DNA of 64,000 nt, taken from positions 62,001-126,000 of the forward strand of contig NC_019902.2 in NCBI RefSeq assembly GCF_000321415.2. Reading direction: 5' to 3'. The notes beneath the pieces are model-generated. The model worked only from the letters and a program-made list of their open reading frames with translations, was not told where the DNA came from and made no database searches. Origin of the DNA: Thioalkalivibrio nitratireducens DSM 14787 (GTDB taxonomy: Bacteria; Pseudomonadota; Gammaproteobacteria; Ectothiorhodospirales; Ectothiorhodospiraceae). This document shows, piece by piece, positions 31,625 through 55,477 of the stretch (positions are counted from its first letter, which is position 1; every line of letters starts with the position of its first letter). Both the position numbers and the translations under genes were made by a program.

Positions 31625-32146
31625 ATGTCGAGCAGCAATGCCGGTGAGGCACAGGAACCTGCGGCCGCCAACGCGGCGGCGCGCAAGGCGGGCGTCGGGG
31701 TGCTCCTGATTGTCGCTGCGCTGGCCTTTACCGGCATGGGCCTGTTCATGTTCAACATGGGCCGCGACATGAGCACGATGACCCGGGCGGTCACGCAGAT
31801 GGGCCTGGACGTCTCGGCGATGGCCGACGACATGACGTTCATGAGCGGGCGCATGGCGGTGATGGCCGACAGCATGGTCGAGGGTCAGGCGGGGATGTCG
31901 CAGGATCTGACCGGGGTGCGGTCCGGTATGGAGCTGATGTCCCGGGACGTGCGCAGCATGGCGGAGAACATGAACGACCTGGCGGTGAACATCCGCGGCA
32001 TGGCCGGCAACATCGGAACGATGAACGCATCCATGTCGCAGATGAACCAGTCGATGGCCCGAATGACCGGTACGATGGGCCGCATGTCCGTGGACATCAA
32101 CAAGTTCACGCGGCCCGAGACGCTGATGCCGTCGCCGTTCCGGTGA
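31625..32146 (+). CDS. Methionine-rich single-pass membrane protein with long helical domain
   Basis: A 173-residue protein I do not recognise. One transmembrane helix (about 22-46, VGVLLIVAALAFTGMGLFMF) follows a short Ala-rich cytoplasmic tail. The rest is a predicted continuous helix with Met at regular 3-4 and 7-residue spacing. I count 27 Met in 173 residues. Such spacing is expected for a Met-lined coiled coil or amphipathic helix, with some resemblance in layout to the helical part of sensory or phage-tail-like proteins. The ATG at 31625 follows a GAGAGGG site. It directly precedes the type I secretion genes on the same strand, suggesting but not proving a link to them. Confidence 0.65.
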   Translation: MSSSNAGEAQEPAAANAAARKAGVGVLLIVAALAFTGMGLFMFNMGRDMSTMTRAVTQMGLDVSAMADDMTFMSGRMAVMADSMVEGQAGMSQDLTGVRSGMELMSRDVRSMAENMNDLAVNIRGMAGNIGTMNASMSQMNQSMARMTGTMGRMSVDINKFTRPETLMPSPFR

Positions 32147-32342
32147 TGGGCGCTGCAGGCAGTCACCCTGCGCCGGTTGGCCGCGATCCCCGTACAGGAA
32201 GAGCCGGTCGTCTTTGCTCCCGGTCGCGAAGCCTTGCGGGGATCTGCTTGACCGGTCTGTTGCGTTGTGATGGGGTGGCGGTCGGTTCTTTGTAACCGAG
32301 CTCTAACAGCTGCGTGGCCACGACGACCAAGGAGACGAATCG

Positions 32343-32438
32343 GTGTTGGTGAGGGAGGCGTCCGGGCAACGGCCTGCCGCCGGAAAGCGCTCTCAGGAAC
32401 CATGCAAGCAACGGGCGCCGAGGCACCAGCCGGCATGA
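32343..32438 (+). CDS. Possible 31-residue leader peptide ahead of the ABC exporter
   Basis: A GTG at 32343 is preceded by an AAGGAG site at good spacing. The frame is short (31 codons, rich in Arg, Gln and Pro) and ends in TGA overlapping an in-frame ATG of the exporter at 32435 (ATGA). The arrangement is that of a translationally coupled leader. It could equally be chance, since the exporter also has its own AGGA-preceded ATG at 32402. Confidence 0.25.
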   Translation: MLVREASGQRPAAGKRSQEPCKQRAPRHQPA

Positions 32439-34591
32439 ACGATGCGATTGCTCGGGGATCAGGCGACAGCCGGGCGCAGGACTCCCTGCTTGGCAGTCTG
32501 GTCCTGATTGCGAAGACACACGGAGTTCAGCTCACGCGCGAAGCCGCGATGGCCGGACTACCCGCCCCCGAGGGCCGGCTGACGCCCTCGCTATTCGAAC
32601 GTGCGGCTCGCAGGGCGGGTCTCAGCAGCCGCATCGTTCAGCGTGATCCCCGGCAGTTGCGGGACGAACTCCTCCCTGCCGTGCTGTTGCTCGAGGGGGA
32701 CGAGGCCTGCGTACTGGTTGCTTGGAACGACGACCGTAGCGTGGCGACCGTCGTTTACCCGGATCTGAGCGATGCCCGGGTAGACTTGCCGTGGTCTCAG
32801 CTCAAGGCGGCGTACACGGGCTGGGCGATCTACGCGCGTCCAACGTTCCGCGTCGATGCGCGCAGCCCCGAGGTTTCGAAGGAGTCTCGGGGGCACTGGT
32901 TCTGGGGTGTGGTACGCGAGAACAAGGGCCTGTACCGGGACGTGCTGGTGGCGGCGTTCATGGTGAACCTGTTCGCGCTGGCGATGCCGCTGTTCGTGCT
33001 GAACGTTTACGATCGCGTGGTTCCGAATCACGCCGTTGAGACGCTGTTCATGTTCGCCGCGGGAGTGGTGATCGTGCTGATCGCGGAGTTGCTGCTGCGC
33101 ACAATGCGCGCCTACTTCGTGGACAAGGCGGCAGCACGTGCCGATGTGAAGCTGTCGGCGATGATCATGGAGCGCGTGCTCGGCATGCGGATGGAGAACT
33201 ACCCCGCCTCCGTGGGGGCGTTCGCCTCTCGCCTGAACAGCTTCGAAGCGGTTCGTAGCTTCATCTCATCGGCGACGGTGCTGGCCTTTGTCGATCTCCC
33301 GTTTGTCTTGCTGTTTATCGCCGTGATCGCGTTGATCGCCTGGCCGTTGGCGGTGCCGGTGGTGATTGGCGCGGTCGTGCTGTTGGTGTGGGTGCTTTTT
33401 GTGCATCGCAAACTGCGCGGGCTTGCGGAGAGCATCTACCGCGCGAGGGCCCAGCGGAACTCTACGCTGGTCGAGAGTCTGAACGCTGCGGAGACGATCA
33501 AAACACTGGGTGCGGAAGGTCGGGTGCAGGCGCTGTGGGAAAAAGCAAGCGCTCATATCGCCGAGCAGAACACGCGTAATCGACTGCTTTCGACCAGCGT
33601 CTCGAACGGTTCCTCGTGGATCCAGCGCTTGGTCGGGGTTACGATCGTCATCGCGGGGGTATTCTTGATCATAAACGGTGCGCTCAGCCTCGGTGGCCTG
33701 ATCGCTTCCTACCTGATCTCGAACCGGGCGATGTCGCCGATCGGTCGGACAGCAGGGTTGATGGTGCACTATCACCAAGCATCGACAGCGTTGCGGTCGC
33801 TGAACCGGATGATGGAGCTGGAAGTCGAACGCCCGCCGGGCTCGTCCTTCCTGAGTCGCCCCCGCATTCAGGGTGATATCGAGTTTCGCGATGTATCCTT
33901 CGTCTATCCCAACCAGACGACTCCGGCGCTGGACGAGGTTTCCTTCCGCATCGCTGCTGGCGAGCGCGTGGCGGTGCTGGGAAGGGTCGGCTCGGGCAAG
34001 ACGACCATCGCCAAGCTGATCCTGGACCTGTATCAGCCTTCCGACGGGGCGATTCTGATCGATGGCGTCGACATCCGGCAGCTCGACCCCGCGGAGCTTC
34101 GACGCGCGATGGGCCATGTCTCCCAGGATGTGACCCTATTCTATGGTTCGCTGCGCGACAACATCGTGCTGGGGAGCCCGCTGGCGGAGGACGACGCGAT
34201 TCTCAAGGCGATTCGGATCAGCGGCATGGAGGATCTGATCAATCGCCATCCCCAGGGGGTCGACATGGAGGTGGGTGAGCGCGGGAGCCGGCTGTCGGGT
34301 GGTCAGAAACAAAGCGTCGGTATTGCCCGGGCGGTGATCCACGAACCGTCGATCCTGCTGCTCGATGAGCCCACGAGTGCCATGGATCATTCCACCGAGC
34401 GTGCGATCAAGGCGCAGCTTCGCGAGTTTCTGAAAGGCCGTACGGCGCTGGTGATCACCCATCGCACGTCACTTCTGGAGCTCGTGGACCGCATCATTGT
34501 AATGGACCATGGTCAAATCGTTGCGGATGGACCCAAGGAGCAGGTGATGGAGGCGCTGCGGCAGGGACGCATCAAGAAAGCCAGGACTTGA
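32402..34591 (+). CDS. Type I secretion ABC exporter, LapB-like
   Basis: A 729-residue ABC transporter with an N-terminal C39-like domain (residues about 20-140) that lacks the catalytic cysteine, as in LapB/HlyB-type exporters. A six-helix ABC membrane domain (about 160-440) and a nucleotide-binding domain follow. The latter has Walker A GRVGSGKTT near 526, signature SGGQK near 631 and Walker B SILLLDEP near 650. It would form the inner-membrane pump of a type I secretion system with the next gene and a TolC-type channel. The likely substrate is the retention-module protein at 36.7 kb. The ATG at 32402 is preferred (AGGA upstream), but 32435 is possible. Confidence 0.92.
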   Translation: MQATGAEAPAGMNDAIARGSGDSRAQDSLLGSLVLIAKTHGVQLTREAAMAGLPAPEGRLTPSLFERAARRAGLSSRIVQRDPRQLRDELLPAVLLLEGDEACVLVAWNDDRSVATVVYPDLSDARVDLPWSQLKAAYTGWAIYARPTFRVDARSPEVSKESRGHWFWGVVRENKGLYRDVLVAAFMVNLFALAMPLFVLNVYDRVVPNHAVETLFMFAAGVVIVLIAELLLRTMRAYFVDKAAARADVKLSAMIMERVLGMRMENYPASVGAFASRLNSFEAVRSFISSATVLAFVDLPFVLLFIAVIALIAWPLAVPVVIGAVVLLVWVLFVHRKLRGLAESIYRARAQRNSTLVESLNAAETIKTLGAEGRVQALWEKASAHIAEQNTRNRLLSTSVSNGSSWIQRLVGVTIVIAGVFLIINGALSLGGLIASYLISNRAMSPIGRTAGLMVHYHQASTALRSLNRMMELEVERPPGSSFLSRPRIQGDIEFRDVSFVYPNQTTPALDEVSFRIAAGERVAVLGRVGSGKTTIAKLILDLYQPSDGAILIDGVDIRQLDPAELRRAMGHVSQDVTLFYGSLRDNIVLGSPLAEDDAILKAIRISGMEDLINRHPQGVDMEVGERGSRLSGGQKQSVGIARAVIHEPSILLLDEPTSAMDHSTERAIKAQLREFLKGRTALVITHRTSLLELVDRIIVMDHGQIVADGPKEQVMEALRQGRIKKART

Positions 34592-34649
34592 GTCCGATGC
34601 GTAAGCAGGATCCGCGTGACGCTGTTCTCCCTGCGGGGGAAGTGTGAAG

Positions 34650-35984
34650 ATGAATCGGTTTGACGGGAAGGCTCGCGGAGCCCGCGATGACCTGGGTGGC
34701 TGGGATTCCGACGCCGAATGGGCGTTGATTCAGCAGCGGCCGGTTCGCGCCCGGGTACTTCTGTACGGCTTTATCGCCACGCTGGTGGTGCTTGTCGGCT
34801 GGGCGTCGGTCGCGGAGATCGACGAGGTGGCCCGGGGCACCGGCCGGGTGATTCCATCGGCACAGCTGCAGGTCATCCAGTCCTTCGACGGCGGTGTGGT
34901 GTCCGAGATCCTGGTACGGGAAGGCGACATCGTCGACGAGGGTGATGTGTTGTTGCGTGTTGATCCGACACGCTTCCTGGCCGATCTGGGTGAGACCCGG
35001 GCGAGTGAGGGTGCGCTCCAGGCGCGTGCTGCACGGCTCGCCGCGCTGGTCGGCGGAACCGAGTTCGTAGTGACTCCGGAGCTCATGGCAGTCCCGGCGG
35101 AAGTGCTCGAACAGGAAATGCGGCTGTTCGCAACCAGCAGGGAGGAGCAGGAGGCACGGATCGCCATTGCCGAGGACCAGCTCCGTCAGCGGCGCGAGGA
35201 ACTGAACGAGGCCCAGGCTCGGCGCACGCAGGCGATCCGTTCGCTGCAACTGTCCTCTCGGGAATTGTCCGTGACCGAGCCGCTCGTGGCCAGCGGCGCC
35301 GTGTCGGAGGTCGAGATCCTGCGCCTGCAGCGGGAGGTGGCGAGGGCGCGTGGTGACCGGGATCAGGCGATCGCCCAGATCAGCCGGCTGCAGGCGGCAA
35401 TCAGCGAGTCCGAAACCCGTATCCGCGAGGTCAAGCTCAGTTTTGAGAACCGGTGGCGCAGCGAGCTTTCGGAAACGCTCGGTCGCTTGTCGGAACTGGC
35501 GGAGGGCACGACAGCCCTGGAGGACCGTGTACGCCTGGCCGAAGTGCGTTCGCCGATGCGGGGAATCGTCCAGCGCCTGTTCATCACGACCCGCGGTGGG
35601 GTGATCTCGCCAGGACGCGAGGTAGCGGAAGTGGTGCCTCTCGACGATCAACTCCTGATCGAGGCAAAGATGTCGCCGCGGGATATCGCGTTCCTGCGTC
35701 CAGGTCTGAATGCACGAGTGCGCTTCACGGCCTACGATTTTGCAATCTACGGGGGATTGTCTGCTACGCTTGAACACATCAGCCCCGACTCGATGATTGA
35801 TGAACAGGGGAATACCTTTTACAAGGTTCGCGTGAGGACGAATGAATACGGGTTCGGCGACGAGCAGCCCATTATGACGGGCATGGTTGCCGAAGTTGAT
35901 ATTCTGACCGGCAAGCGTACGCTGCTGCGGTACTTGCTGAAGCCACTGTTGCGTGCGACAGAAATTGCGTTCACGGAGCGCTAG
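34650..35984 (+). CDS. Type I secretion membrane fusion protein, LapC/HlyD-like
   Basis: A 444-residue HlyD-family adaptor. One transmembrane helix lies at about 30-52 (VLLYGFIATLVVLVGWASVAEID). It is followed by a lipoyl-type strand region QLQVIQSFDGGVVSEILVREGDIV, a long coiled coil (about 110-290) and a C-terminal beta-barrel with VRSPMRGIVQRLFITTRGGVI. It links the ABC pump to the outer-membrane channel. The ATG at 34650 has GGGGGA at suitable spacing; a GTG two codons earlier is too close to it. The gene follows the exporter by 58 bp. Confidence 0.93.
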   Translation: MNRFDGKARGARDDLGGWDSDAEWALIQQRPVRARVLLYGFIATLVVLVGWASVAEIDEVARGTGRVIPSAQLQVIQSFDGGVVSEILVREGDIVDEGDVLLRVDPTRFLADLGETRASEGALQARAARLAALVGGTEFVVTPELMAVPAEVLEQEMRLFATSREEQEARIAIAEDQLRQRREELNEAQARRTQAIRSLQLSSRELSVTEPLVASGAVSEVEILRLQREVARARGDRDQAIAQISRLQAAISESETRIREVKLSFENRWRSELSETLGRLSELAEGTTALEDRVRLAEVRSPMRGIVQRLFITTRGGVISPGREVAEVVPLDDQLLIEAKMSPRDIAFLRPGLNARVRFTAYDFAIYGGLSATLEHISPDSMIDEQGNTFYKVRVRTNEYGFGDEQPIMTGMVAEVDILTGKRTLLRYLLKPLLRATEIAFTER

Positions 35985-35986
35985 CG

Positions 35987-36592
35987 ATGCATCGGTTCAA
36001 AATTGCACCGGAGGAGCGTCCGTCGGAACGGTGGGTCGAGGCGTTTCCGGGGGCCGTGATCGAGCGGCCGCCATTCGCTTCTCAGCGGGCCCGTGGTGTC
36101 GAGATCTGCTGGATCAGCACCGGGCTCGAGCGCTGGCCTGAAGTCGTACGCGAGCAGGTATCAGGCTGCCGGGTGGTCGTGCACTCCCGTCGCCCCAACG
36201 ATGACGAGGCTGTGGCCGCGTTCGAAGCCGGGGCGCATGGGTACTGCCACAGCCTGTCCAACGTCACGATTCTCCAGTCGGTGGCCAGTACGGTCGCGAG
36301 CGGGGGGTTGTGGGTTAACCCCGCTGTGATGGCACGAATGATCCGTGCGGTGCGCGTGGCCCGGCGCGCTGATCCGGGCTACCCTCCGGACGGCTTCGAG
36401 CGACTGACGGCCAGAGAGCGGGAGGTGGCGCTGGCGGTCACGACGGGGGCTTCCAACAAGGACATTGCGGACCAGCTCAGCTTGACCGAGCGTACGGTGA
36501 AGATGCACCTCGGTGCCATCTTTAAGAAGCTGGGCGTCAGGGATCGAGTGCATCTGGTGTTGTACCTCGCCCGCGGAGCGCCTGCTTCCTGA
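35987..36592 (+). CDS. LuxR/NarL-type regulator with degenerate receiver-like domain
   Basis: A 201-residue protein. The C-terminal LuxR helix-turn-helix is intact (about 139-190: LTAREREVALAVTTGASNKDIADQLSLTERTVKMHL). The N-terminal 120 residues resemble a shortened receiver, ending GAHGYCHSLSNVTILQSVASTVASGG as in NarL proteins. The phospho-acceptor Asp strand and the acidic pair near the N-terminus are not recognisable. It may therefore work without phosphorylation. It sits 2 bp after the membrane fusion gene and 144 bp before the adhesin-like gene, a position suited to controlling that gene. Confidence 0.82.
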   Translation: MHRFKIAPEERPSERWVEAFPGAVIERPPFASQRARGVEICWISTGLERWPEVVREQVSGCRVVVHSRRPNDDEAVAAFEAGAHGYCHSLSNVTILQSVASTVASGGLWVNPAVMARMIRAVRVARRADPGYPPDGFERLTAREREVALAVTTGASNKDIADQLSLTERTVKMHLGAIFKKLGVRDRVHLVLYLARGAPAS

Positions 36593-36736: not shown

Positions 36737-39700
36737 ATGGCAACCGAACAGGCAATCGCGGTCGCAACCACGGTACAGGGGAACGCAATGGTGCGCGACG
36801 CGGACGGGAACGTTCGCACACTGAACCCCAACGATCCCATTTTCCCAGGCGATGTCGTCATCACCGAATCCGGTGCCGCGGTCGTTCTCGCGTTCGACGA
36901 CGGAACGCCCCTCGTTGTCGGCTCTGACGACGAAGTTTCGATCAGCGAGGATCTTGCGGACTCTACCCCGCCCGACGGCGACGAATCTCAGGTTGATGCG
37001 CCGACGGTCGAAGAGATCATTGCTGCCCTGGAAAGGGGTGAAAGTCTGGATGACCTGCTCGAAGCACCCGCTGCCGGTCCTGGCCCTGGCGGTGACGGCG
37101 ATGAAGGTAGCAGCGCGGTGTGGTTGCCGCGCGTGTCGGAGAACGTTCCTCCGGTGGCCTATCAGTTCGGGGTGTTCGGCGCGCCCACTCCTGAGATCGA
37201 GGTGGGTGACGAACTGATCCTGCTGGACGACACTGATACCGACACGGACACCGACACGGACACCGACACGGACACCGATACCGACACCGACACGGACACC
37301 GACACGGACACCGATACCGACACGGACACCGATACCGACACGGACACCGATACCGATACGGACACCGATACCGATACGGACACCGATACGGACACCGACA
37401 CGGACACGGATACCGACACGGATACCGATACCGATACCGATACCGATACCGATACCGATACCGACACGGACACCGACACGGACACCGACACGGACACCGA
37501 CACGGACACCGACACGGATACCGACACGGATACCGATACCGATACCGGATACCGATACCGATACCGATACCGATACCGATACCGACACGGACACCGACAC
37601 GGACACCGACACGGACACCGACACGGACACCGACACGGACACCGACACGGACACCGACACGGACACCGACACGGATACCGATACCGATACCGATACCGAT
37701 ACCGATACCGATACCGACACGGACACCGATACCGATACCGATACGGACACCGACACGGATACCGATACGGACACCGATACGGACACCGATACGGACACCG
37801 ATACGGACACCGATACGGACACCGATACGGACACCGATACGGACACCGATACGGACACCGACACGGACACCGACACGGACACCGACACGGACACCGACAC
37901 GGACACCGACACGGACACCGATACGGACACCGACACCGATACGGATACCGATACCGACACGGACACCGATACCGACACGGATACCGACACGGATACCGAC
38001 ACGGATACCGACACGGATACCGATACGGATACCGATACGGATACCGATACCGGACACGGACACCGACACGGACACCGATACCGATACCGACACGGACACC
38101 GATACCGACACCGACACGGACACCGACACGGACACCGACACGGACACCGACACGGACACCGACACGGACACCGACACGGATACCGATACGGATACCGATA
38201 CGGACACCGACACGGACACCGGCCCGCCCACCGACACGGATACCGATACCGACACGGACACCGACACGGACACCGATACGGATACCGATACGGATACCGA
38301 TACGGATACCGATACGGACACCGATACGGACACGGATACGGACACCGATACGGACACCGACACGGACACCGATACCGACACGGACACGGACACGGACACC
38401 GACACCGACACCGACACGGACACCGATACCGATACCGATACCGATACCGATACCGATACCGATACCGATACCGATACCGACACGGACACCGATACCGATA
38501 CGGACACCGATACGGACACCGACACGGATACCGATACGGACACCGATACGGACACCGATACGGACACCGATACGGACACCGATACGGACACCGATACGGA
38601 CACCGATACGGACACCGATACGGACACGGATACCGACACGGATACCGACACGGATACCGACACGGATACCGACACGGATACGGATACGGATACGGATACG
38701 GATACCGATACCGATACGGACACCGATACGGACACCGATACGGACACCGATACGGACACCGATACGGACACCGATACGGACACCGATACGGACACCGACA
38801 CGGACACCGACACGGACACCGACACGGACACCGACACGGACACCGATACGGACACCGACACCGATACGGATACCGATACCGACACGGACACCGATACCGA
38901 CACGGATACCGACACGGATACCGACACGGATACCGACACGGATACCGACACGGATACCGATACGGATACCGATACGGATACCGATACGGACACGGACACC
39001 GATACCGATACCGACACGGACACCGATACCGACACCGACACGGACACCGACACGGACACCGACACGGACACCGACACGGACACCGATACGGATACCGATA
39101 CGGATACCGATACGGATACCGATACGGATACCGATACGGACACCGACACGGACACCGACACGGACACCGACACGGACACCGACACGGACACGGATACCGA
39201 TACCGACACGGATACCGATACGGACACCGACACGGACACCGACACGGACACGGATACCGATACCGACACGGATACCGACACGGATACCGACACGGATACC
39301 GATACGGATACCGATACGGATACCGATACGGATACCGATACGGATACCGATACGGACACCGACACGGACACGGATACCGACACGGATACCGACACGGATA
39401 CCGACACGGATACCGACACGGATACCGACACGGATACCGACACGGATACCGACACGGATACCGACACGGACACCGACACGGATACCGACACGGACACCGA
39501 CACGGATACCGACACGGATACCGACACGGACACCGACACGGACACCGACACGGACACCGACACCGACACGGATACCGATACGGATACCGACACCGACACG
39601 GATACCGATACGGATACCGATACGGATACCGATGGTCCGTCACCGGCGTATTCCTATATCGCGGTCAAGCTGGACGACGGGACCGTCATTAAAGTCGAGT

Positions 39701-40503
39701 TTGACGGTGACGAGGACATCAAGATCGAGGACAACCCTGAGCTTGCTATCCAGGTGGCAGATGAGGTGGCCGGCGAAGGTGAATGGACGGATATCATCAT
39801 CCATGGCGGCAATAAGCATTACACCATCGAATATGACGGGGATGGCAATCCGGTCGCCACGGAAACCGAACCAGATTTTGGTGATGAAGGTTGGCCCGAA
39901 GCTGGAAATTCCGGGAAGGTCGGAGGGAAAGATGTTCAAGTAGTGAGCTACGGCAGCCTTGAGTCGTCGGGATCTGAGGACACCGACACCGATACGGACA
40001 CCGATACCGATACGGACACCGATACCGATACGGACACCGATACCGATACCGATACCGATACGGATACGGACGCCGATACGGACACCGATACCGATACCGA
40101 TACCGATACCGATACCGATACCGATACGGAGACACGGACACGGACACGGACACGGACACGGACACGGACACGGACACGGACACGGACACGGACACGGACA
40201 CGGACACGGACACGGACACGGAACACGGACACGGACACGGACACGGACACGGACACGGACACGGATACCGATGCGGACACGGATACCGATGCGGATACCG
40301 AGATCGAGGGTAATTCGCAGCCGCTCCAGGCCGGCTCCCTCAGCAGTCGGGACGTGACGGGCGACGACGATGAGGGGCTATTCCCTGAGGGGGATGACGA
40401 TATCGGCGGTGACGACACTGATCCGGATGCCAATGAAGAACCGTTCTTCGACGACGATCAGCCGGACATCCCGGACACCACGGATGGCGAAGAGCAGCAC
40501 TGA
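36737..40503 (+). CDS. LapA-like retention-module protein with giant poly(Asp-Thr) tract, frame interrupted twice
   Basis: Residues 1-165 match the retention module of LapA-type adhesins. The LapG-type cleavage site PAAG is at residues 111-114, close to the TAAG position in LapA. An (Asp-Thr)n tract begins at 37229. Two single-base insertions (near 37547 and 38052) move the D-T frame twice. Following the repeat through both, the product is about 1254 residues: retention module, 400 D-T-type units, a globular piece of about 115 residues (39634-39978), a second D-T tract and an acidic tail ending DTTDGEEQH. Without frameshifting the frame instead reads Gly-Tyr-Arg and then Thr-Arg/Pro repeats to a stop at 39943. 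No RTX nonapeptides are seen. It is likely exported by the adjacent type I system and held at the surface. Confidence 0.75.
37229..39630 (+). repeat. Hexanucleotide tandem repeat, 400 units of GAYACS
   Basis: The units are GACACC, GACACG, GATACC and GATACG, all encoding Asp-Thr. The tract is 2402 bp: 53 units (37229-37546), one extra base, 84 units (37548-38051), one extra base, and 263 units (38053-39630). That is exactly 400 hexamers plus 2. One pair of units is variant (GGCCCG CCCACC near 38220, Gly-Pro-Pro-Thr). Longer-period repeats of mixed units suggest growth by block duplication. It has few stop codons in any frame on either strand, so spurious long open frames arise on both strands. 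Confidence 0.95.
39979..40299 (+). repeat. Second GAYACS repeat tract with a frameshifted Thr-Arg patch
   Basis: The 321 bp are 53 hexamers plus 3 extra bases. A 2-base insertion (40129-40130) turns Asp-Thr into Thr-Arg coding, and a 1-base insertion near 40222 restores it. The roughly 94 bp between are made only of GACACG units and encode about 15 Thr-Arg pairs. A few GCC/GCG substitutions give Ala (D-A in place of D-T). Confidence 0.9.
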
Positions 40504-40513
40504 CGCGTCGTTG

Positions 40514-40766: not shown

Positions 40767-40964
40767 GTGCTTGGCTGTTTCCTGGGTACAGAAGGTCGTT
40801 GCGTTTAACCGGTAATCACGTCGTCGAACGTATTTGCCGGGGCACGAGGCGTGATCGGGCAATCATGAACTCCCAACCTCAAATCGCCCTTGGCGTTCGC
40901 TTGATTCTCCTGGCCCGTTGGCGCATTGTCGGGTCCACGGAACGTTTGTTCGTGGGCGCTGACG

Positions 40965-41291
40965 ATGTTTATACGACGAAACCAGAAGGGTGAGATAGTC
41001 GCGGTCAGTCGCATCCAGACGCCGGAGATTTCCGAGCCGATACCGGATTCCAGCCCAGAACTTGCTGCGTTCGTTGCCGCTCTGCAGGCCACCGGGGTCT
41101 CGGAGCTCGCGGCGTCCGACCTTGAAACCATTCGAGTCCTTGAGGATCTGATCGAGATCCTGACGCGCCGGGGGCTGATCAGCTTCACCGATTTTCCTGA
41201 AGCCGCCCAGCGCAAGTTGTTGGCACGCAAGTCTCTACGGGAGACGGCACGCGATCTCGACCTTTTCGACGAGCATGACGGGATCATCTGA
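40965..41291 (+). CDS. Conserved hypothetical protein
   Basis: A 108-residue small soluble protein starting MFIRRNQKGEIVAVSR. The middle is acidic and helical (SPELAAFVAALQATGVSELAASDLETIRVLEDLIEILTRRGLISFTDFP) and the end is FDEHDGII. Proteins of this shape are widespread in proteobacteria, where some are named tryptophan synthase subunit beta-like; no function is known to me. The ATG at 40965 is chosen over one 13 codons upstream because MFIRRN matches the usual beginning. Confidence 0.75.
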   Translation: MFIRRNQKGEIVAVSRIQTPEISEPIPDSSPELAAFVAALQATGVSELAASDLETIRVLEDLIEILTRRGLISFTDFPEAAQRKLLARKSLRETARDLDLFDEHDGII

Positions 41292-44700: not shown

Positions 44701-45702
44701 GTGCTGGTCGCGGTTCACTGGGGAAGGAATGGCGAGCCGCATCCCGGTGACGATGAAGTGCAAGTCGGTCACGCACTTGTGGATGCAGGGGCCGATGCCG
44801 TTCTCGGTGCCTCTGCACATCGTCTTCAGGGCGTCGAAGTGTACAAGCAACGGCCCATTATTCACGATGCGGGGAACCTGTTGTTTGATGCGAAAACGGG
44901 GCAGGTGGACTCGGGGCTCTTTCGTTTGAGCCTGAGCGACCGCGGTGTGGAAATGCTGGAGTTTATGCCCGTGATCTCGGACTTCGGGTTGAGCTTTCCT
45001 GCGCCGGGTACGGAGGCGCGTGAACGCTGCCTCGAGTACGCCCGGATGTCATGGGATCTGGGATCAGAGATGGTGATGGCGACGGCGGATACCGGCATTC
45101 TCTTTCTCGATCCGTTGCCACGAAATGGGAATGGTGAGGTCGCGCGTGATCAGAGTGGGCCGCCTGCTATGAACTACGAGTCTGCCTGGAGCGGTGGAGT
45201 TGAAGAAGCAACGTGCTGCGTGGATGCCGTTCCCCGGAACGTTGCCATCGCGGAAATCCCGATCGGGCCTCTCCGGCTGTTGGGCGTGCGGGTGTTGCCG
45301 CAAAGAATTGTTGGGCGGCAGATGATCTGGGTTGAGAGCTATTGGCAGGCGGATCACGAGTTGTCCGATGACGTCCGGTTGGACATTCAGGTCCGTGGCA
45401 TTCCTGGGTCTGCGTCCGTCTGGGGCCGCGGTATGGATCACGATCCATGCGACTGGATGATGCCTACACGGCACTGGAGGCCGGGCCGTATCTATCGGGA
45501 TTACTTCGGGCTCAGACCGCCTCCGGCAAAGCAGATCGAGAACGGCATTCACCGCGTCGACGTAGGGCTCGTGTCGCGACGGTACCGTGTCTCCGCGACC
45601 ACAGTGCCTGGGCTGGAGGTAGAAGTCATTTTCCCCGGACGGACGGAAAAGCGGGCTGGCCTCGATACGCGGCCTGCAGAGAGCCAAGGCTCCAAATCAT
45701 GA
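41791..45702 (+). CDS. Fusion protein: alpha/alpha-toroid, methyltransferase-like and CapA domains
   Basis: A 1303-residue multidomain protein. Residues 1-205 are unrecognised. Residues about 210-580 look like a helical toroid of the six-hairpin glycosidase type (YLSRQVRPDGRWAYGW, LRHASSAYALLEGWELT, TIYYDGEAAFGLLRLYDLTGD). Residues about 605-770 match a methyltransferase tail (FASHVVATLPYREF, LAPGGVLKLSVPDLSVLARLYL), with no clear SAM-binding glycine loop. Residues about 785-1080 are a CapA/PgsA metallophosphatase-like domain (WGGDVNLGRR, RIVNLECV, VVAVANNHAGDYG, VAVHWGRNGEPHPGDDEVQVGHALVDAGADAVLGASAH). The last 220 residues are beta-rich and unassigned. Its stop overlaps the start of the glycosyltransferase gene (ATGA), so the two are surely co-translated. 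No signal peptide is evident. The start lacks a good ribosome-binding site and is uncertain. Confidence 0.72.
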   Translation: MCRVLLGRATVSLAQLASAAKPALSRFLEETQYSVPACGWVLFFSACNGHERAHVVNVRGNDFDQAWANGMQRLRQWLKTQKLPPRWLRVDVVSEIRELSWLELKSTFAKTKTNYFKWGVGWDPELRVAVLEQELSGTSSLYTGDIMACTPNQCNLQRLLSRRFGVDRGWPESDSEPMWVFRTRAVFANGRETIALEHEGNMAGVRRVGTLDVELVRELVCRSSDYLSRQVRPDGRWAYGWAPAFNKPLPSYNSLRHASSAYALLEGWELTKDAKHLAAAERALEYLCRELIHDVRLPNGNEVSYLVDVGNEIKLGGNAVSLLALAKHAKLTSDTSRYPLMEKLALGLLAMQDPETGSFVHVLEYPSLELKETTRTIYYDGEAAFGLLRLYDLTGDPRWLEAVHKAMDHFIASEHWRAHDHWLGYCITEFTQHVPEEKYFLFGIQNVREHLDFVLTRLTTYPTLLELMMAAEKMFARMRNDDSLREMLNAELDLEKFERALNYRARYLLNGYFYPELAMFFKVPTKILGAFFIRHYGFRVRIDDVQHYLSGYVAYLRYLKNPGPKRDAVVDVAYGETRLADRQLVISARPLARPPSQHQSATTQSQHITDPRGLAEFKDTIFGDIFASHVVATLPYREFQRGFLSSVYRLLAPGGVLKLSVPDLSVLARLYLNRSLSLREQTSVMRMMFGAQTGTADFNCAGYDFELIKLHLERAGFVNVYQHVGFRQFSDITNKVFLGRNISLNVSGRKPRIPLLGSMRMEGGDVGSTIANPSVLGVGGSDRRKARVIWGGDVNLGRRQHYRTAELGSRAMFERIPELANAELRIVNLECVVASIGEHGVEKGERGPYYYRARPEMVQVLSDAGINVVAVANNHAGDYGSSALMQQQEILARAGIGSVGAGRNREEAFAPIYRAVGDCSVAIFAVDATMPHFAAGASRPGIAYLSLKSSRAWIDEMKPRIGKARDIADVVLVAVHWGRNGEPHPGDDEVQVGHALVDAGADAVLGASAHRLQGVEVYKQRPIIHDAGNLLFDAKTGQVDSGLFRLSLSDRGVEMLEFMPVISDFGLSFPAPGTEARERCLEYARMSWDLGSEMVMATADTGILFLDPLPRNGNGEVARDQSGPPAMNYESAWSGGVEEATCCVDAVPRNVAIAEIPIGPLRLLGVRVLPQRIVGRQMIWVESYWQADHELSDDVRLDIQVRGIPGSASVWGRGMDHDPCDWMMPTRHWRPGRIYRDYFGLRPPPAKQIENGIHRVDVGLVSRRYRVSATTVPGLEVEVIFPGRTEKRAGLDTRPAESQGSKS

Positions 45703-47945
45703 ACCATGCACTGAAACGGGTTCTGTTGGAGTTGCGCAGCCGGGTTGAAGATCCTGAACGCAGAGCAGCGAACGGGAGTCGCCAGTCGCCGAATAGCGGC
45801 GAACTTCTTTCGCTCGTCGCTCTGCCACGACAGCATGCGGAAGAATTGCTCGCTACGCTGCAACCGGCATCTGAGCCCGCGATTCAGGTGAGGGTCCTCA
45901 GCGAACTCCTAGGTGAATACGTTCAGGGCTCCCAGTTGTTCACGGAGCTCGGGAGGATGCTTATCCAGCAGGGTCGACCCGTCACGGCGCTCGCGTATCT
46001 GGACGAAGCAGTCAGGCGGCATCGGAACTCGGTTGCTGCGCTCAGGTTGAGAGCGTACGCGCTGATCAAGATCGTCGGCGAAATGCACAAAGCCGTTCTT
46101 GCGCATCAGGAAGCACTTGCAATCAAGCGGGATTCCAAAATCGAACGCCGGATGCTGATGGCGATGCATTACGCAACGGAGTTTTCCCCCGAGGACATTG
46201 CGCAGGAGCACTTCGACTGGGGCGATCGCCATGGCTTCTTGAAGGGTCCGGCAATTGGGACTAGGAAACCCTCGGACGACCCCCGACGTCTCCGGGTCGG
46301 CTATGTTTCCGCCGATTTCCGGAATCATTCCGCCGCTTCGTTCCTTCGGCCGATACTTGAAAACCATGATCGCACCCGGTTCGAGGTCATCGGGTACGCG
46401 GCCAATGCAAAGCAGGATTCGGTGACGGATGAGCTTAAGCGGCTGTGCGACCGTTGGCGCGAAATCCATGGTCTGGCGACGCAGGAGGTGGTGGAGGCGA
46501 TCCGTAAAGATTGCGTAGATATCCTGGTCGATCTGGCCGGCCACACATCAGGCAATCGGCTGGATGTCTTCATCCGTCGTGCTGCGCCTTTACAGGTTAC
46601 CTACCTGGGTTATCCTAATGGCACAGGTATCCGATCCATGGACTGCCGGGTGACCGACGCGGTAACCGATCCACCGGGGGCGTCCGATCGCCTGTACCGG
46701 GAGCGCTTGCTGCGCATCGATCCTGTCTTCCTATGCTACCAGCCGCCGAGGCTGGCAATTCCTGTCGGACCTCCACCCGCCGCCTCGGCCGGTTTCGTCA
46801 CCTTCGGAACTTTTAATAATTACGCGAAAATTTCGCGAGAGGTCATCGCAGTTTGGGCACGCATTCTTGCAGCAGTCCCGGATTCGCGCCTCCTGATCAA
46901 GTCGACAGGGCTCGACTCGTCCGAAACGCGAACACGGCTGATGTCATTGTTCGAGGCCGCCGGTTTGAGCAATCCGGGCGCTCGGATCGACTTGATGAAC
47001 CGCGTGCGTTCCACCGAGGAGCACCTGCGGATCTATGACCGGGTGGACCTCGCGTTGGATACGTTTCCCTACAGTGGGACTACGACCACCTGCCAGGCGT
47101 TGTGGATGGGGGTTCCGGTCCTGACGCTTTATGGCCGCAGTCACGTGGGGCGCGTCAGTGCTAGTGTGTTGAGGCAGATGGCGTTGGACGATCTCGTTGC
47201 GGGTTCAGAGGAGGACTACATCGCGCGCGCCGGGCAGTTGGGGAGAGAACCGGCACGGTTGGCCGCGCTTAGGGGGCAGATGCGCCCCCGGCTGCTGGCA
47301 TCCCCTCTTTGCGATGCGCATGGGTTCGTGCGTAAACTCGAATCGCTTTTTCTCGGGGCGTGGCGACAGGTGACTGAGCCCCACAGCCGAGAGCACGACG
47401 CACAAGGTGAGGCTCCTCCGCGACGCCTGCAAATCGGCGGTACGAGGCCAGCCCCAGGCTGGGAAATATTCAATATCGCGCCTGCTGAGGGTGTTGATCA
47501 TGTCGGGAACGCGAAAGACCTTTCCCGCTTTCCCGACCGAACGTTCACCGAGCTTTACGCGTCTCATGTGCTGGAGCACTTTAGCTACAGCCAGGAGTTG
47601 GAGCAAGTGCTCAACGAGTGGTACCGGGTAATGAAGGAAGGTGGCCGATTGCGGATCAGCGTCCCGGACCTTGAGGTGTTGTCGGCCATGTTTCTGGACC
47701 GGAAACTTTCGTCCAATGAAAGATTTTTCGTGATGCGGATGATCTTCGGGGGCCAGGTGAATCCCTGCGATTTTCACCGTACGGGCTTCAGCCGTGCCTT
47801 CTTGGTTCATTGGCTTCGCAAGGTCGGGTTCTCGGAGATCCGTCAAGTGAAGCGATTCGGTCTCTTTGCGGACAACAGCAACAAGATCCGCAACGGGAAG
47901 CGTATCAGCTTGAATGTGATGGCCGTCAAAAGGGGTGCATCTTGA
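45699..47945 (+). CDS. SPINDLY/OGT-type O-glycosyltransferase fused to a methyltransferase-like domain
   Basis: A 748-residue protein. Residues about 60-165 are TPR-like helices. The GT41 catalytic region follows: LRVGYVSADFRNHSAASFLRPI (near 198), LVDLAGHTSGNRLDVFIRRAAPLQVTYLGYPNGTG, FGTFNNYAKISREVI (near 368, with the Lys of the UDP site) and DLALDTFPYSGTTTTCQALWMGVPVLTLYG (near 448). The C-terminal 160 residues are methyltransferase-like (FPDRTFTELYASHVLEHF, MKEGGRLRISVPDLEVLSAMFLDRKLSSNERFFVMRMIFGGQ). That domain is homologous to the one in the preceding protein. Bacterial GT41 enzymes add GlcNAc-type sugars to Ser/Thr. The neighbouring poly(Asp-Thr) protein is an obvious candidate target. 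The ATG at 45699 overlaps the previous stop. Confidence 0.88.
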   Translation: MNHALKRVLLELRSRVEDPERRAANGSRQSPNSGELLSLVALPRQHAEELLATLQPASEPAIQVRVLSELLGEYVQGSQLFTELGRMLIQQGRPVTALAYLDEAVRRHRNSVAALRLRAYALIKIVGEMHKAVLAHQEALAIKRDSKIERRMLMAMHYATEFSPEDIAQEHFDWGDRHGFLKGPAIGTRKPSDDPRRLRVGYVSADFRNHSAASFLRPILENHDRTRFEVIGYAANAKQDSVTDELKRLCDRWREIHGLATQEVVEAIRKDCVDILVDLAGHTSGNRLDVFIRRAAPLQVTYLGYPNGTGIRSMDCRVTDAVTDPPGASDRLYRERLLRIDPVFLCYQPPRLAIPVGPPPAASAGFVTFGTFNNYAKISREVIAVWARILAAVPDSRLLIKSTGLDSSETRTRLMSLFEAAGLSNPGARIDLMNRVRSTEEHLRIYDRVDLALDTFPYSGTTTTCQALWMGVPVLTLYGRSHVGRVSASVLRQMALDDLVAGSEEDYIARAGQLGREPARLAALRGQMRPRLLASPLCDAHGFVRKLESLFLGAWRQVTEPHSREHDAQGEAPPRRLQIGGTRPAPGWEIFNIAPAEGVDHVGNAKDLSRFPDRTFTELYASHVLEHFSYSQELEQVLNEWYRVMKEGGRLRISVPDLEVLSAMFLDRKLSSNERFFVMRMIFGGQVNPCDFHRTGFSRAFLVHWLRKVGFSEIRQVKRFGLFADNSNKIRNGKRISLNVMAVKRGAS

Positions 47946-51118: not shown

Positions 51119-51960
51119 ACCCGAAATTACTCGCCCTCTACGGGCTGAAGTGGAACCCGTTCGCCACCGAAATCCCGATCGAGGCACTCTATGTGCCAGC
51201 ACGGGTCGAGGACTTCTACTGGCGCATCGAGCAGGGACTGATCCGGGAAGGTGGCTTCGCCATGGTCCACGGCGACCCCGGCACCGGCAAAAGCGCCGTC
51301 CTGCGCCTGATCGCGGAACGCCTGGCACGGCTGCCCGACCTCACCGTCGCCGCGATCCATCACCCGCAGAGCCATCTCGCCGACTTCTACCGCGAGATGG
51401 GTGATCTCTTCGGCGTGCCCCTGCGCCCGCACAACCGCTGGGGTGGCTTCAAGGCTCTGCGCGAGAACTGGTTCGCCCACCTGGACACCACGCGCCGGCG
51501 CGCCGTGCTCCTGATCGACGAAGCCCAGGAAATGAGCCCCGCGGTCCTGTCCGAACTGCGCCTGATGGCCAGCGCCCGGTTCGACTCCCAGACCCTCCTG
51601 TGCGTGGTCCTCGCCGGCGACGCCCGCCTGCCCGAAAAGCTGCGCCGCGAGGAACTCATCCCGCTCGGCTCGCGCATCCGCACCCGCCTGGTCACCGAAG
51701 CCGCCAGCCGCGACGAACTCCAAGCCTGCCTGCAACACCTGCTCGACACCGCCGGCAACGCCAGCCTCATGACCCCCGCGCTCCAGCACACCCTCTGTGA
51801 CCACGCCGTCGGCAACTACCGGATGCTCACCACCCTGGCCGCCGAACTGCTCGCCGTCGCCGCCCAACGCGACCTGCCGCAGCTCGACGAAAAACTCTAC
51901 CTCGACGTCTTCGCCCCCAACGAAAAACCCATCCCGCGCCGCGCCGCCGCACGCCGCTGA
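51115..51960 (+). CDS. AAA ATPase of the inner transposon (TniB/TnsC-like)
   Basis: A 281-residue ATPase of the ExeA/TniB class. Walker A is MVHGDPGTGKSAVLR (about 48-60), Walker B is RAVLLIDEAQEMS (about 130-142), and a sensor-like VVLAGDARLPEKLRR follows. It begins MNPKLLALYGLKWNPFATEIP, the ExeA-type N-terminus. Such ATPases choose or present target DNA to a DDE transposase. The ATG at 51115 overlaps the integrase stop. Confidence 0.9.
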   Translation: MNPKLLALYGLKWNPFATEIPIEALYVPARVEDFYWRIEQGLIREGGFAMVHGDPGTGKSAVLRLIAERLARLPDLTVAAIHHPQSHLADFYREMGDLFGVPLRPHNRWGGFKALRENWFAHLDTTRRRAVLLIDEAQEMSPAVLSELRLMASARFDSQTLLCVVLAGDARLPEKLRREELIPLGSRIRTRLVTEAASRDELQACLQHLLDTAGNASLMTPALQHTLCDHAVGNYRMLTTLAAELLAVAAQRDLPQLDEKLYLDVFAPNEKPIPRRAAARR

Positions 51961-51978
51961 AACCCTCTGGAGACCCTC

Positions 51979-52206: not shown

Positions 52207-52334
52207 AGCTCTCCCAAGCCCTGCGCTCGAGACGCCGCCGAACCCCCTCCCGGGGTTCGGCGGCTTAGTGCTGAGCAGACCCCTCAACGAACGTGATCAG
52301 CGCAACATCAAATCAGGTGATCACACTCAGCCAG

Positions 52335-52670
52335 GGACGCTTGCAGCATGTGCTGTGCAACAGCCGGTTTCTGATCCTGCCCTGGGTGCAGGTCCCGAAC
52401 CTGGCGAGCCACCTCCTGGCCCGGGGTGCCCGGCAGGTGGTGGCGGACTGGCCAGCGCAGTATGGTGTCACCCCCTGGCTGCTCGAAACGCTGGTGGACT
52501 CCCGCTTTCGCGGCGCCTGCTATCGGGCCGCCAACTGGAGGGCGGTGGGTGAGACCACCGGCCGCGGCCGCGACGACCGCCACCACCGCCGTCATGGCGC
52601 CGCGCCCAAGCGCGTGTGGCTCTATCCCTTGCACCGGCACAGCCGGCGCTGGCTGCGCGGGGAGGGCTAA
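52335..52670 (+). pseudogene. DUF4338 (DruA-like) protein, C-terminal part
   Basis: Continues the protein interrupted at 48877: GRLQHVLCNSRFLILPWVQVPNLASHLLARGARQVVADW, then ETLVDSRFRGACYRAANWRAVGETTGRGR and KRVWLYPLHRHSRRWLRG. The Asn-Ser-Arg-Phe-Leu-Ile-Leu-Pro and RGACYRAANW motifs are highly typical of DUF4338. Joined with the N-terminal part it gives about 294 residues. The sequence just before 52330 is transposon end, so the ATG at 52293 is not native. Confidence 0.82.
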
Positions 52671-52673
52671 GCG

Positions 52674-53278: not shown

Positions 53279-53279
53279 T

Positions 53280-54049
53280 CCTCCCGTTGCGTATTCCGGA
53301 CCAACGTGATCCCGCAAGTAAAAGACCCGCTCCAGCGGGTTACCGATGGGCACGCCGGTCAATATCACCGGAATCGGCGGTCACCTTCGCCGGAATGCGC
53401 GCCACGGGAGCCAGACAAGGTGATGGCACGGTCCGCAGCCTATAACCGAAGGGCTCGATCGTCGTCATAACGAGTCTCCTTTTCGGTGCCCTTCTCGGTC
53501 GGGAAGGATTCGAGCAAACGCGAGGACCCAGGAGGTCGATGCGGGGCGCAGTCGTGAAAATGGACCGCTACGCATATTCGTGGTCCATCTGCGGGCGTCA
53601 GTAACGATCGAATGTGTGTCAAAATGCCTACAGAACCGGTCGGATTTGTCGCAAGAATGTCGCGCTGTGCATTGACGGTAGCCATAGCCAGCATCTAGAT
53701 TAGGTATTCAAGGATCGCGTGTGTCGCTTCCGTCACGCTTTCGGCTTGGATAGTGGGTGTGTCCGGCATGGAGGGAGAACCGGTGGTCTCGGGAAGGTGA
53801 CGAATTTTGTCACTCGGGTGATGCGATCCGACAGGCTTCGGGCGTCGAAGAACATGAAGACGGTCCACGCCGCCCTGGTGCGTGACATGCTTGCCACGGA
53901 TAAGGTGCGGGTTGTTAGGAGGTCGAACCGGGGCCGTGCGTTTGGTGGTTGCCGGCCCGCGTGTGCGGCACTGTGGACGTAAGCCGCCGGCGCAGCTGGT
54001 GGAGGTCGGTCTGCGGTCAATGCGAATGATCAAAAGGTGGGTTGACGAC
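53280..54049. other. Gene-free stretch before the TolC-type gene
   Basis: This 770-bp region follows the transposon. Open frames on both strands are short and have no recognisable motifs. A relatively AT-rich part at 53560-53700 could hold a promoter for the channel gene. The region was probably once continuous with the end of the glycosyltransferase gene before the transposons arrived; this is inference. Confidence 0.4.
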
Positions 54050-55477
54050 ATGAAGAGTCTAAAGCGCTTTGCATTATCCGTGGCTGTGGCGGCCATGCTG
54101 GCGGTAATGGGCACAGTGGCGCAGGCATCGATCCCAGAACCCCTGCGGGAGGCGATCATCGAGGCGATCAACACGAACCCGGAGGTGCAGGAACGGTGGC
54201 ACGCGTTCCTGGCGGCCGAAGAGGGGCGCAAGGTCGCCCGCGGGCGGTATTTTCCCGAGGTGGACCTGACGCTATCAGCCGCTCGACAGTACCAGGAAAG
54301 CAGCGATTTCGGGCGTCTCACGCGGGATCCGCTCAGCGCCAGCCTGACGCTGAATCAAATGATCTATGACGGCTTCTTCACCCAGGCGGACGTGGCGCGC
54401 TTGGGGCACGCGAAGATGGTGCGTTATTACGAGCTGCTGGAGGCGGCGGAGCAAGCGGCGCTGGAGGCGATTCGTGCCTATGCGGACGTGGAACGCTACC
54501 GCGAGCTGGTCTTCCTGGCTGAGCAGAACTACCAGGCGCATCGGGATCTCTACGATCAGGTCGAGGAACTGGCCCGCACGGGCGTGGGGCGCCGCGTGGA
54601 TCTGGAACAGGCGACCGGGCGTCTGGCTCTGGCGGAGTCGAATCTGCTCACCGAGATCGCGAATCTGCACGACGTCACCGCGCGCTTTCTGCGCATCGTG
54701 GGGCGCACCCCGCCTGACGACTACATCGAGATGATCGGTGTGCTGCCGGTGGAACGCATCCCGGAAACGGTGGACCAGGCGCTGGTCGATGCGCTTGCGT
54801 CCAATCCTGCGCTGTTCGCGTCGGTCGAGAATATCCTGTCGGCGCAGGAGCAGGTCCGAGTGGGCCGATCCTACTACCATCCGCGGCTGGATTTTCGAGT
54901 TCAGGCGAGCCGCGACAATGCCCTGAACAACTTTTTTACGGATAGCGGCGAGGAGTGGGTGACCGATACGGTGATCGGTCTGGTTCTGACCTTCAATCTG
55001 TTCAGAGGCTTGGCCGATCAGGCGCGAATCGGCCAATTTGTCGAAGAGGCCAACGTCGCGAAGGACAAGCGGGAAACCGTGTGCCGCAACATCCGTCAGA
55101 CGGTGGCGATCGCTTTCAACGACATCGACGTGCTGGACGAGCGTCTCGTGTATCTGGATCAGCACCAGCTGTCCAGCGACCGCGTGCGGACGGCCTATAT
55201 GCAGCAGTTCACGATTGGCCAGCGGACGCTGCTGGATTTGCTGGACATGGAGAACGAGTTCTTCGAGGCGCGCCGGGCGTTTGTCGATGGCCAGTTCGAC
55301 CGCGAGATTGCGGTGGCGGAAGCCCTTACCGGTCTGGGGCGCCTGCTGCCAGCACTCGAGCTTGTGCGGGACGAGATGCCGGACGTGGGCGATCCGCCGG
55401 TGATCGATCCTGAAGAAATCTGTCCGCCAGTGGCCCCGCCCGCTGTCGAGGTGCCCCGGAACAGCCTGTTCCGTTGA
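54050..55477 (+). CDS. TolC-family outer-membrane channel (LapE-like)
   Basis: A 475-residue outer-membrane factor. A signal peptide (about 1-26, ending GTVAQA) is followed by two TolC-type repeats, with LREAIIEAINTNPEVQERWHAFLAAEEGRKVARGRYFPEVDLTLSA at the start and ASNPALFASVENILSAQEQVRVGRSYYHPRLDFRVQ in the second half. It ends with a Pro-rich tail. With the ABC exporter and membrane fusion protein at 32-36 kb it would complete a type I secretion system. It is the only such channel gene in the window, now 18 kb from its partners because of glycosylation-like genes and transposons. An AGGTGG precedes the ATG at 54050. Confidence 0.92.
   Translation: MKSLKRFALSVAVAAMLAVMGTVAQASIPEPLREAIIEAINTNPEVQERWHAFLAAEEGRKVARGRYFPEVDLTLSAARQYQESSDFGRLTRDPLSASLTLNQMIYDGFFTQADVARLGHAKMVRYYELLEAAEQAALEAIRAYADVERYRELVFLAEQNYQAHRDLYDQVEELARTGVGRRVDLEQATGRLALAESNLLTEIANLHDVTARFLRIVGRTPPDDYIEMIGVLPVERIPETVDQALVDALASNPALFASVENILSAQEQVRVGRSYYHPRLDFRVQASRDNALNNFFTDSGEEWVTDTVIGLVLTFNLFRGLADQARIGQFVEEANVAKDKRETVCRNIRQTVAIAFNDIDVLDERLVYLDQHQLSSDRVRTAYMQQFTIGQRTLLDLLDMENEFFEARRAFVDGQFDREIAVAEALTGLGRLLPALELVRDEMPDVGDPPVIDPEEICPPVAPPAVEVPRNSLFR

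Follow-up and report, generated by a model that had tools for sequence, protein, structure and literature searches.

Tor, a putative GtfC-family partner of X-Asp dipeptide tracts, at an Asp-Thr surface protein locus of Thioalkalivibrio nitratireducens

We examined a gene cluster of Thioalkalivibrio nitratireducens DSM 14787 (genome G000), lying within a 64,000-nt stretch referred to here as the window, which encodes a LapA-type surface protein with long Asp-Thr (DT) tracts, its type I export machinery, and enzymes that may modify it. One of these enzymes contains a toroid-like domain, named Tor here and putatively of the GtfC family, and we find that Tor genes recur beside tracts in which aspartate alternates with a second residue, X. 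A preliminary description of this DNA had named a LapB-type exporter, a LapC-type adaptor, a LuxR-type regulator and a TolC-type channel, and had placed all named genes on one strand; profile searches confirmed each of the four, and all of the named genes lie on the plus strand. They are a LapB/LssB-type type I secretion permease/ATPase (32267..34591; TIGR03375, 932 bits), a LapC/HlyD-type adaptor (34644..35984; TIGR01843, 378 bits), a LuxR-type regulator (35987..36592; PF00196, LuxR/GerE) and a TolC-type outer-membrane channel (53882..55477; TIGR01844, 237 bits), which are 91%, 88%, 80% and, over residues 51-531, 96% identical in the sister genome G011, respectively, with the LapB, LapC and TolC matches all exceeding their cut-offs. 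The true start of LapB probably lies inside its listed open reading frame (ORF), with homology to G011 beginning at residue 48. Upstream of LapB, at 31205-32146, is a methionine-rich, coiled-looking protein that is 78% identical in G011 and gave sub-threshold profile matches only (DUF1664, IcmG/DotF). Elsewhere in the genome (C1:545286-547742) the genes for LapG (PF06035, 57 bits) and a LapD-like protein are adjacent to each other, the latter being full-length against the LapD model (positions 1-639 of 647, 428 bits, E 3.3e-128) at a score below the curated cut-off of 1020. A GGDEF protein adjoins TolC on the opposite strand (55579-56697, minus), with an ORF at the same place in G011 that is alike by eye, and through it cyclic di-GMP (c-di-GMP) may exert control at the locus itself.

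The surface protein begins with a LapA-type retention module (36737..37228, plus; NF033682, 118.5 bits over residues 7-144, cut-off 50), whose translation contains an APAAG stretch, a possible candidate for the di-alanine site at which LapG cleaves. This is followed on the same strand by tract 1 (37229..39630), with 398 DT units and a single short interruption, a non-repetitive domain (39631..39978), which is open in the frame of the downstream tract and has a differing domain in its place in G011, tract 2 (39979..40299), with 49 units, and an acidic C-terminal tail (40300..40503), with no recognised T1SS_VCA0849 signal and a similar tail in G011. Tandem Repeats Finder placed the DT repeats far above chance expectation, with a score of 2745 for an array at 37228-39632 that comprises 203 copies of a 12-mer, and with a further array at 39978-40283. 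Frame changes occur after 37546 and 38051 in tract 1, the segments of which hold 53+84+28+233 units, and two more occur in tract 2; beyond the first 53 units the listed ORF (36737-39943) no longer follows the DT frame, and in this assembly the C-terminal part is not read in the frame of the retention module. The earlier claim of a retention-module protein with hundreds of DT units therefore stands as to module and units, but not as a single reading frame. In tract 1, 397 of the 398 units are encoded by GA(C/T) AC(C/G) in its four spellings and one by GACACT and, frame changes and the short interruption aside, units vary at third codon positions only, the pattern anticipated when a tract is maintained in its amino-acid sequence. 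The G011 counterpart is one intact ORF of 771 residues with 125 + 74 DT units, which indicates that the frame changes in the window are either assembly errors in repeats or recent events. Downstream is a small protein of unassigned function (40926..41291, plus), 80% identical in G011, 33-50% elsewhere, and present in 11 of 16 related retention-module loci.

Next on the plus strand is a fusion ORF of 1303 residues (41791-45702), which starts with the Tor domain (41791..43470), delimited by the family alignment and by a standalone ORF of 554 residues in G011 with 89% identity. Tor is followed by a degenerate methyltransferase-like segment (43603..44034; 37% to the methyltransferase linked to GT41, Pfam E 0.081), a PGA_cap (CapA) domain (44152..44889; PF09587, 194.7 bits, residues 788-1033) and a C-terminal region of approximate boundary (44971..45702), which is common to Tor-CapA-Mur ligase proteins and 37-50% identical in loci L112, L114 and L119. 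Although PGA_cap is present, a Mur ligase was not detected at the window locus. The CapA/toroid/methyltransferase-like fusion proposed previously is hence sound in its CapA part, but its methyltransferase is degenerate and a better one is fused to the adjoining enzyme, a TPR-GT41 (SPINDLY-like) glycosyltransferase-methyltransferase (45699..47945, plus; ORF listed from 45447). Here the GT41 domain matches PF13844 in two stretches (165.8 bits) and the methyltransferase matches Methyltransf_11 (PF08241, 32.7 bits), with TPR_14 below its cut-off, and the closest solved relatives are SPINDLY enzymes (E 3.5e-101, aligned residues 62-541), in agreement with the original SPINDLY/OGT assignment. The reading frame of this enzyme has an ATG at 45699 that overlaps with the TGA (45700-45702) terminating the fusion gene, an arrangement suggesting that translation of the two is coupled. 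Relatives of GT41 were not found in phage records.

Between GT41 and TolC, the "transposons" of the preliminary description include a DruA-type gene in two pieces (48329-48931 and 52293-52667; profile positions 40-125 and 125-224), separated by an rve integrase and AAA ATPase pair (49679-51957), as if an element had been inserted into the gene. Together with the four frame changes in the tracts, this broken stretch could indicate that the system is decaying in this strain. However, each of the four changes falls within a long repeat, a setting prone to assembly errors, the DT protein outside its tracts is open, as are Tor, GT41, LapB, LapC and TolC, and the G011 protein is intact, and we consider decay unlikely.

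Among 398 genomes of the phylum, 15 contained a Tor homologue, a count that takes in the window's own genome and one weak case; a search of 72,556 plasmid records yielded 54, and a viral scan none. At strict limits (alignment A1) the family was sporadic: it was present in 3 of the 369 genomes searched in the class and in 1 of 240 from another class, and two orders gave 2 of 260 and 4 of 257, with own and centre genomes counted. No Pfam or NCBIfam family matched Tor relatives above cut-off. In an alignment of 17 Tor proteins the mean column identity was 50%, and 17 of the 59 invariant columns were His, Arg, Glu or Asp, which suggests that Tor may be catalytic. Weak profile matches only were obtained for its fold (GH88, GH127, C5-epimerase, LanM, cellobiose 2-epimerase, YteR and GH76), families which we take to share an (alpha/alpha)6 toroid, and these hint at a possible toroid-like fold of this type in Tor; a single-sequence AlphaFold2 model was unusable (pLDDT 38). 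We also considered Tor as a simple basic polyanion binder and found no support for this, the median isoelectric point being 6.69 and 17 of 47 proteins being net positive. One member, L160, sits on a very long branch of the Tor tree and may not be a true Tor.

We then analysed the surroundings of 47 Tor genes, comprising those of the window and G011, 15 places in 13 phylum genomes, 4 further genomes, and 26 plasmid records that were chosen from the 54 for variety, making this a non-random sample, which also holds near-copies (Staphylococcus, Agrobacterium); the weak matches G130 and G177, and L156, a second copy of L143, were left out. An alternating X-Asp tract (DT, SD, DA or GD) lay within 11 kb of Tor in 33 of the 47, and this set was identical whether the minimum was 8, 10 or 12 units. 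Tor and tract shared a strand in 31 of the 33, same-strand tracts being preferred by the script. At the same thresholds tracts were seen in 0/17 GT41 loci and 0/16 retention-module loci lacking Tor (0/33 in total), although these controls were also non-random, with 10 of the 16 retention-module loci coming from the genus of the window and 12 having a LapB match; one of the 16 (G038) has Glu-Pro (EP) tracts instead.

The tract carriers are type I-secreted, LPXTG or autotransporter proteins. They include an (SD)149 protein beside LapB- and HlyD-like genes (L115), (DA)n retention-module proteins (L123, L158 and L159; NF033682, 96, 119 and 117 bits, respectively), a (DA)n RTX protein (L116; PF00353), BapA-like adhesins of Agrobacterium with 235 and 322 DA units (L133 and L137), S. 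epidermidis SdrF (L130), a Listeria LPXTG protein with (DA)134 (L131) and staphylococcal Pls/SdrD-like proteins (L140, L142 and L146). In L126 an autotransporter with (Gly-Asp)88 (5787-8957; PF03797, 158 bits) directly precedes the Tor gene, and the link between tract and Tor is thus not tied to type I secretion. Other neighbours of Tor include secreted-looking proteins with a metalloprotease-like motif, HELFHL(Y/F)QYGY, seen by eye (L116, 6991-7977; L118, 8308-9255). On two Sulfitobacter plasmids (L139 and L162) the Tor-Mur ligase genes are flanked by condensation-domain proteins on one side and a type I polyketide synthase on the other, and a (DA)n BapA-like protein is encoded on the opposite strand.

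Domains fused to the C-terminus of Tor, or encoded by adjoining genes, were Mur ligases, ATP-grasp ligases (some with PGA_cap) and GT4-type glycosyltransferases, and PGA_cap together with a Mur ligase also occurs in Tor fusions. We counted a glycosyltransferase or ligase as a partner when it was within 5 kb of Tor, and compared partners with the identity of X. For Ser/Thr tracts (n=8; X at least 90% Ser/Thr, a cut-off set after the table had been inspected) the partner was a glycosyltransferase in six, a Mur ligase in one (L113) and none recognised in one (G011), while for Ala, Gly or mixed tracts (n=25) it was a Mur/ATP-grasp ligase in 17, neither in eight, and never a glycosyltransferase. 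Glycosyltransferases were searched by tblastn with five queries, including three GT4 queries from the loci themselves, and their absence elsewhere is consequently soft. The difference in glycosyltransferase occurrence (6/8 versus 0/25) gave p=2.5e-5, and p=0.0021 when collapsed by lineage using our own grouping (4/5 versus 0/12). An ORF of G011 that we had first read by eye as GT8 reached only E 0.062 in Pfam, with nothing relevant in a PDB search, and was scored as no transferase; counting it as a glycosyltransferase would have given p=1.9e-6, a value that was not used. The Ser/Thr fraction of X was 0.92-1.0 at glycosyltransferase loci and 0-0.69 at ligase loci, with one at 0.97. The glycosyltransferases of L115, L130 and L157 were confirmed by Pfam, and that of L146 is named in its record.

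On the Tor tree each label, tract or partner, needs at least four changes, and Staphylococcus Tor proteins that are 69% identical are found with SD tracts and GT4 (L130 and L146) or with DA/DS tracts and a Mur ligase (L140 and L142), which together indicate that tract and partner tend to change together. Some neighbourhoods hold further genes. On a Nitratireductor plasmid (L135) an N-formylglutamate amidohydrolase and a glutamine synthetase-family gene (13269-14048 and 18273-19589), as well as a separate MurF-like ligase, are near Tor, and a connection of the first two with glutamate chemistry is possible. On two Staphylococcus plasmids (L164 and L165) Tor is followed only by a short Mur ligase ORF, behind another short ORF, and this ligase partner may be non-functional.

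The preliminary description had named GT41/CapA homologues that never neighbour retention-module genes in relatives as grounds for refuting it, and we assessed this for GT41 in 144 relatives (own genome included). Retention-module matches were obtained in 48 of them, 19 above cut-off, and GT41 relatives in 31. Both were present in 15 genomes besides G000, five of these with a retention match above cut-off, and in 0/15 was GT41 close to the retention-module gene: the two are more than 500 kb apart on the same contig in three and on different contigs in 12, which are draft genomes and so provide weak evidence. G011 DNA aligns with the window to 43449 and again from 53386, with other genes in between, namely an ORF that matches an epimerase weakly (E 0.019), a fusion of epimerase and aldo/keto reductase, the weak GT8 ORF and a methyltransferase. 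By the test of the preliminary description GT41 therefore fails, if weakly, and we rejected it as the conserved partner; judged by sequence, this partner is Tor, which is retained as a separate gene in G011. For CapA, a neighbouring retention-module gene was found in one case (L158), where Tor lies beside CapA and a Mur ligase and the 119-bit retention-module protein carries a (DA)n tract. The equivalent locus of G038 (L078 7596-8105 and 9761-10120) encodes two retention-module proteins, whose (Glu-Pro)n tracts comprise 85 and 60 units and whose C-termini do not resemble that of the DT protein.

On balance we favour, with a little more confidence than doubt, a reading in which the surface protein of this locus is retained in the LapA manner and its long DT stalk is covalently decorated, the threonines being O-glycosylated by GT41, with the help of Tor, before export. 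In this scheme X-Asp dipeptide tracts would form a widespread class of stalk with Tor as their recurring genetic partner, and a second enzyme that varies by locus would perform the transfer, usually a glycosyltransferase where X is Ser or Thr. In the window this enzyme would be the SPINDLY-like GT41, adding sugars to the DT threonines while the chain is still in the cytoplasm; Tor would be needed as a helper, which could either hold and feed the tract or carry out chemistry common to all branches. The modified chain would then pass unfolded through LapB-LapC-TolC, and the retention module would keep it at the cell surface until cleavage by LapG, under control of LapD and c-di-GMP. As GT41 fits the rule that Ser/Thr tracts go with a glycosyltransferase, threonine glycosylation remains the best reading, although that the tract is modified, at which atom and with which sugar, and the exact role of Tor, are matters that we infer. 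Comparison supports the core of the earlier idea, in which a retained protein secreted by the type I route bears a long acidic stalk and has modifying enzymes dedicated to it, with the dedicated partner being Tor and not GT41.

Several observations weigh against this reading. In the sister genome a DT protein of this kind and Tor are present, but GT41 is missing from the locus and its place is taken by the weak GT8-match ORF, methyltransferase and epimerase/reductase genes. The SD tract of L113 is accompanied by a Mur ligase, and tract and partner labels are somewhat clustered by descent on the Tor tree, with 20 and 25 of 500 shuffles being as low. For 14 of the 47 Tor genes the DNA that was fetched contains no tract; of these, L119, L122, L124, L125 and L161 start within 2.1 kb of a DNA end and L121 is on a 7.9-kb contig, while eight (L112, L114, L117, L118, L120, L134, L143 and L160) are flanked by DNA on either side. 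The assembly shows frame shifts in the DT gene, the type I C-terminal signal T1SS_VCA0849 (TIGR03661) had 0 matches in the whole genome, and the identification of Tor with GtfC was made from position, length and orientation and not from the GtfC sequence. Furthermore, the equivalent stalk in G038, a genome with no Tor, is (EP)n and offers nothing to O-glycosylate, which indicates that a bare acidic stalk can suffice.

This last point also speaks for an alternative in which the DT tract is an unmodified polyanionic spacer, perhaps one that binds calcium or is suited to a saline, alkaline environment, with the GT41, CapA and methyltransferase genes as cargo of a variable island between Tor and TolC. 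The G038 proteins have neither Tor nor GT41 nearby, and the stretch from Tor to TolC differs between G000 and G011 and holds the inserted element. Nevertheless, Tor is 89% identical in the two species and accompanies X-Asp tracts in 33 of 47 cases, the partner enzyme changes with the tract, and GtfC/GtfD modify such a tract in staphylococci (PMC5230774), and we regard a bare spacer as rather unlikely. We find it improbable that Tor alone makes a common modification, on aspartate or the backbone, with GT41 or a ligase merely adding to this or acting elsewhere: nine tract-bearing Tor genes (G011 and the eight with Ala, Gly or mixed tracts, including Listeria and Enterococcus (DA)n and the autotransporter (GD)n) have no glycosyltransferase or ligase within 5 kb by our queries, Asp is the sole residue common to all tracts, and the invariant columns of Tor are enzyme-like, but partner genes could sit elsewhere in the genome, L166 and L169 have a short ORF or an insertion element where their kin carry a Mur ligase, and Pls is not glycosylated when GtfC is present without GtfD (PMC5230774).

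Returning to decoration of the tract by Tor with a second enzyme, we propose tentatively, at somewhat short of even confidence, that Tor marks a widespread and hitherto unrecognised modification of X-Asp stalks in Gram-positive and Gram-negative bacteria across three surface routes, in which Ser/Thr tracts receive a sugar on X from a glycosyltransferase, and Ala/Gly tracts an amide on the Asp carboxylate from an ATP-dependent Mur/ATP-grasp enzyme, in some cases with PGA_cap. In (DA)n and (GD)n tracts the Asp carboxylate is the sole side-chain functional group, and the Mur/ATP-grasp partners of these tracts suggest, by analogy with cyanophycin or poly-gamma-glutamate synthesis, that amides could be formed there. 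In cyanophycin synthetase CphA and the poly-gamma-glutamate enzymes CapA/CapB, Mur-ligase/ATP-grasp domains form amides on Asp/Glu carboxylates. PGA_cap and Mur ligase likewise occur together in Tor fusions, whereas action of the Tor-linked ligases on protein tracts would be a different setting, which we infer. If true, the Ala/Gly branch would represent a genetically encoded, surface-displayed brush resembling cyanophycin or poly-glutamate, with the window belonging to a threonine branch that uses GT41. Staphylococcal Ser-Asp stalks would then be part of a much broader class, to which type I-secreted adhesins and an autotransporter also belong, with Tor as its single marker gene, and the repeat sequence would predict the chemistry, such as Asp side-chain amidation in (Asp-Ala)n adhesins, for example those on Agrobacterium plasmids. 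In the available text of the open-access literature we found no description of such amidation.

The absence of any described system of this composition, as stated in the preliminary description, proved half right, as the staphylococcal Pls system with GtfC/GtfD (SCCmec type I) is of the same kind. In S. aureus COL the gene for GtfC (538 residues), which CAZy does not predict to be a glycosyltransferase, is immediately downstream of pls, with that for GtfD (503 residues) convergent (PMC5230774). When the genes come from COL, the Ser-Asp repeats of Pls are weakly glycosylated by GtfD alone and fully by both together, while with the genes of strain 1061 any glycosylation needs both, and GtfC alone gives none (PMC5230774). 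In our sample L142 has a Tor of 538 residues directly after pls, and in L130 and L146 convergent glycosyltransferases follow Tor; by position, length and orientation we take staphylococcal Tor to be the GtfC family. The Pls system therefore shares with the window a long surface tract, a Tor-length gene directly downstream and an adjoining glycosyltransferase, but differs in its sortase-anchored Gram-positive protein, GT4-type enzyme and Ser residues, whereas the window has type I secretion, a LapA retention module, Thr and a GT41-methyltransferase. A GT4-type enzyme of the SdgB/GtfD kind was not found beside the window tract, GT41 being there instead. If Tor acts as we propose, this would offer a reason why GtfC, despite not being a predicted glycosyltransferase, is needed for glycosylation (PMC5230774).

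SesJ with gtfA/gtfB appears, by its description, to resemble the Pls system (PMC7029136). SdgA/SdgB likewise O-glycosylate a hydroxyl residue in an X-Asp tract, with SdgB acting on Asp-Ser-Asp in the Ser-Asp repeats of ClfA/Sdr proteins, but are a GT4-type pair, and the available text of their descriptions does not name a Tor-like protein (PMC8561734, PMC3794999). In the open-access literature, as far as its available text extends and with subscription papers not covered, we found no description of Tor outside the staphylococcal gtf genes, no Mur ligase tied to X-Asp adhesins, and no account of the Gram-negative type I/autotransporter extension, the GT41 threonine branch or the tract-partner rule. 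As in LapA/LapBCE systems with LapD/LapG, the genome of the window has a retention module, LapB, LapC, TolC, LapG and a LapD-like protein, but its stalk is a simple dipeptide repeat, no standard type I C-terminus was found, and Tor and GT41 adjoin. A further related protein is BapA of Paracoccus denitrificans, a biofilm adhesin with 891 Asp-Ala repeats encoded next to type I secretion genes, which shows anomalous gel mobility and for which the authors could not exclude modification (PMC5588039). Paracoccus is absent among the 54 Tor-bearing plasmid records, a set of plasmids only, its chromosome not having been searched. BapA and the window protein are both type I-secreted and consist mostly of an X-Asp dipeptide tract, with X being Ala in BapA and Thr in the window (PMC5588039). 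Among these systems Ser-Asp glycosylation with GtfC is already known, and amidation of Ala/Gly-Asp tracts, should it prove real, would make a new kind of system.

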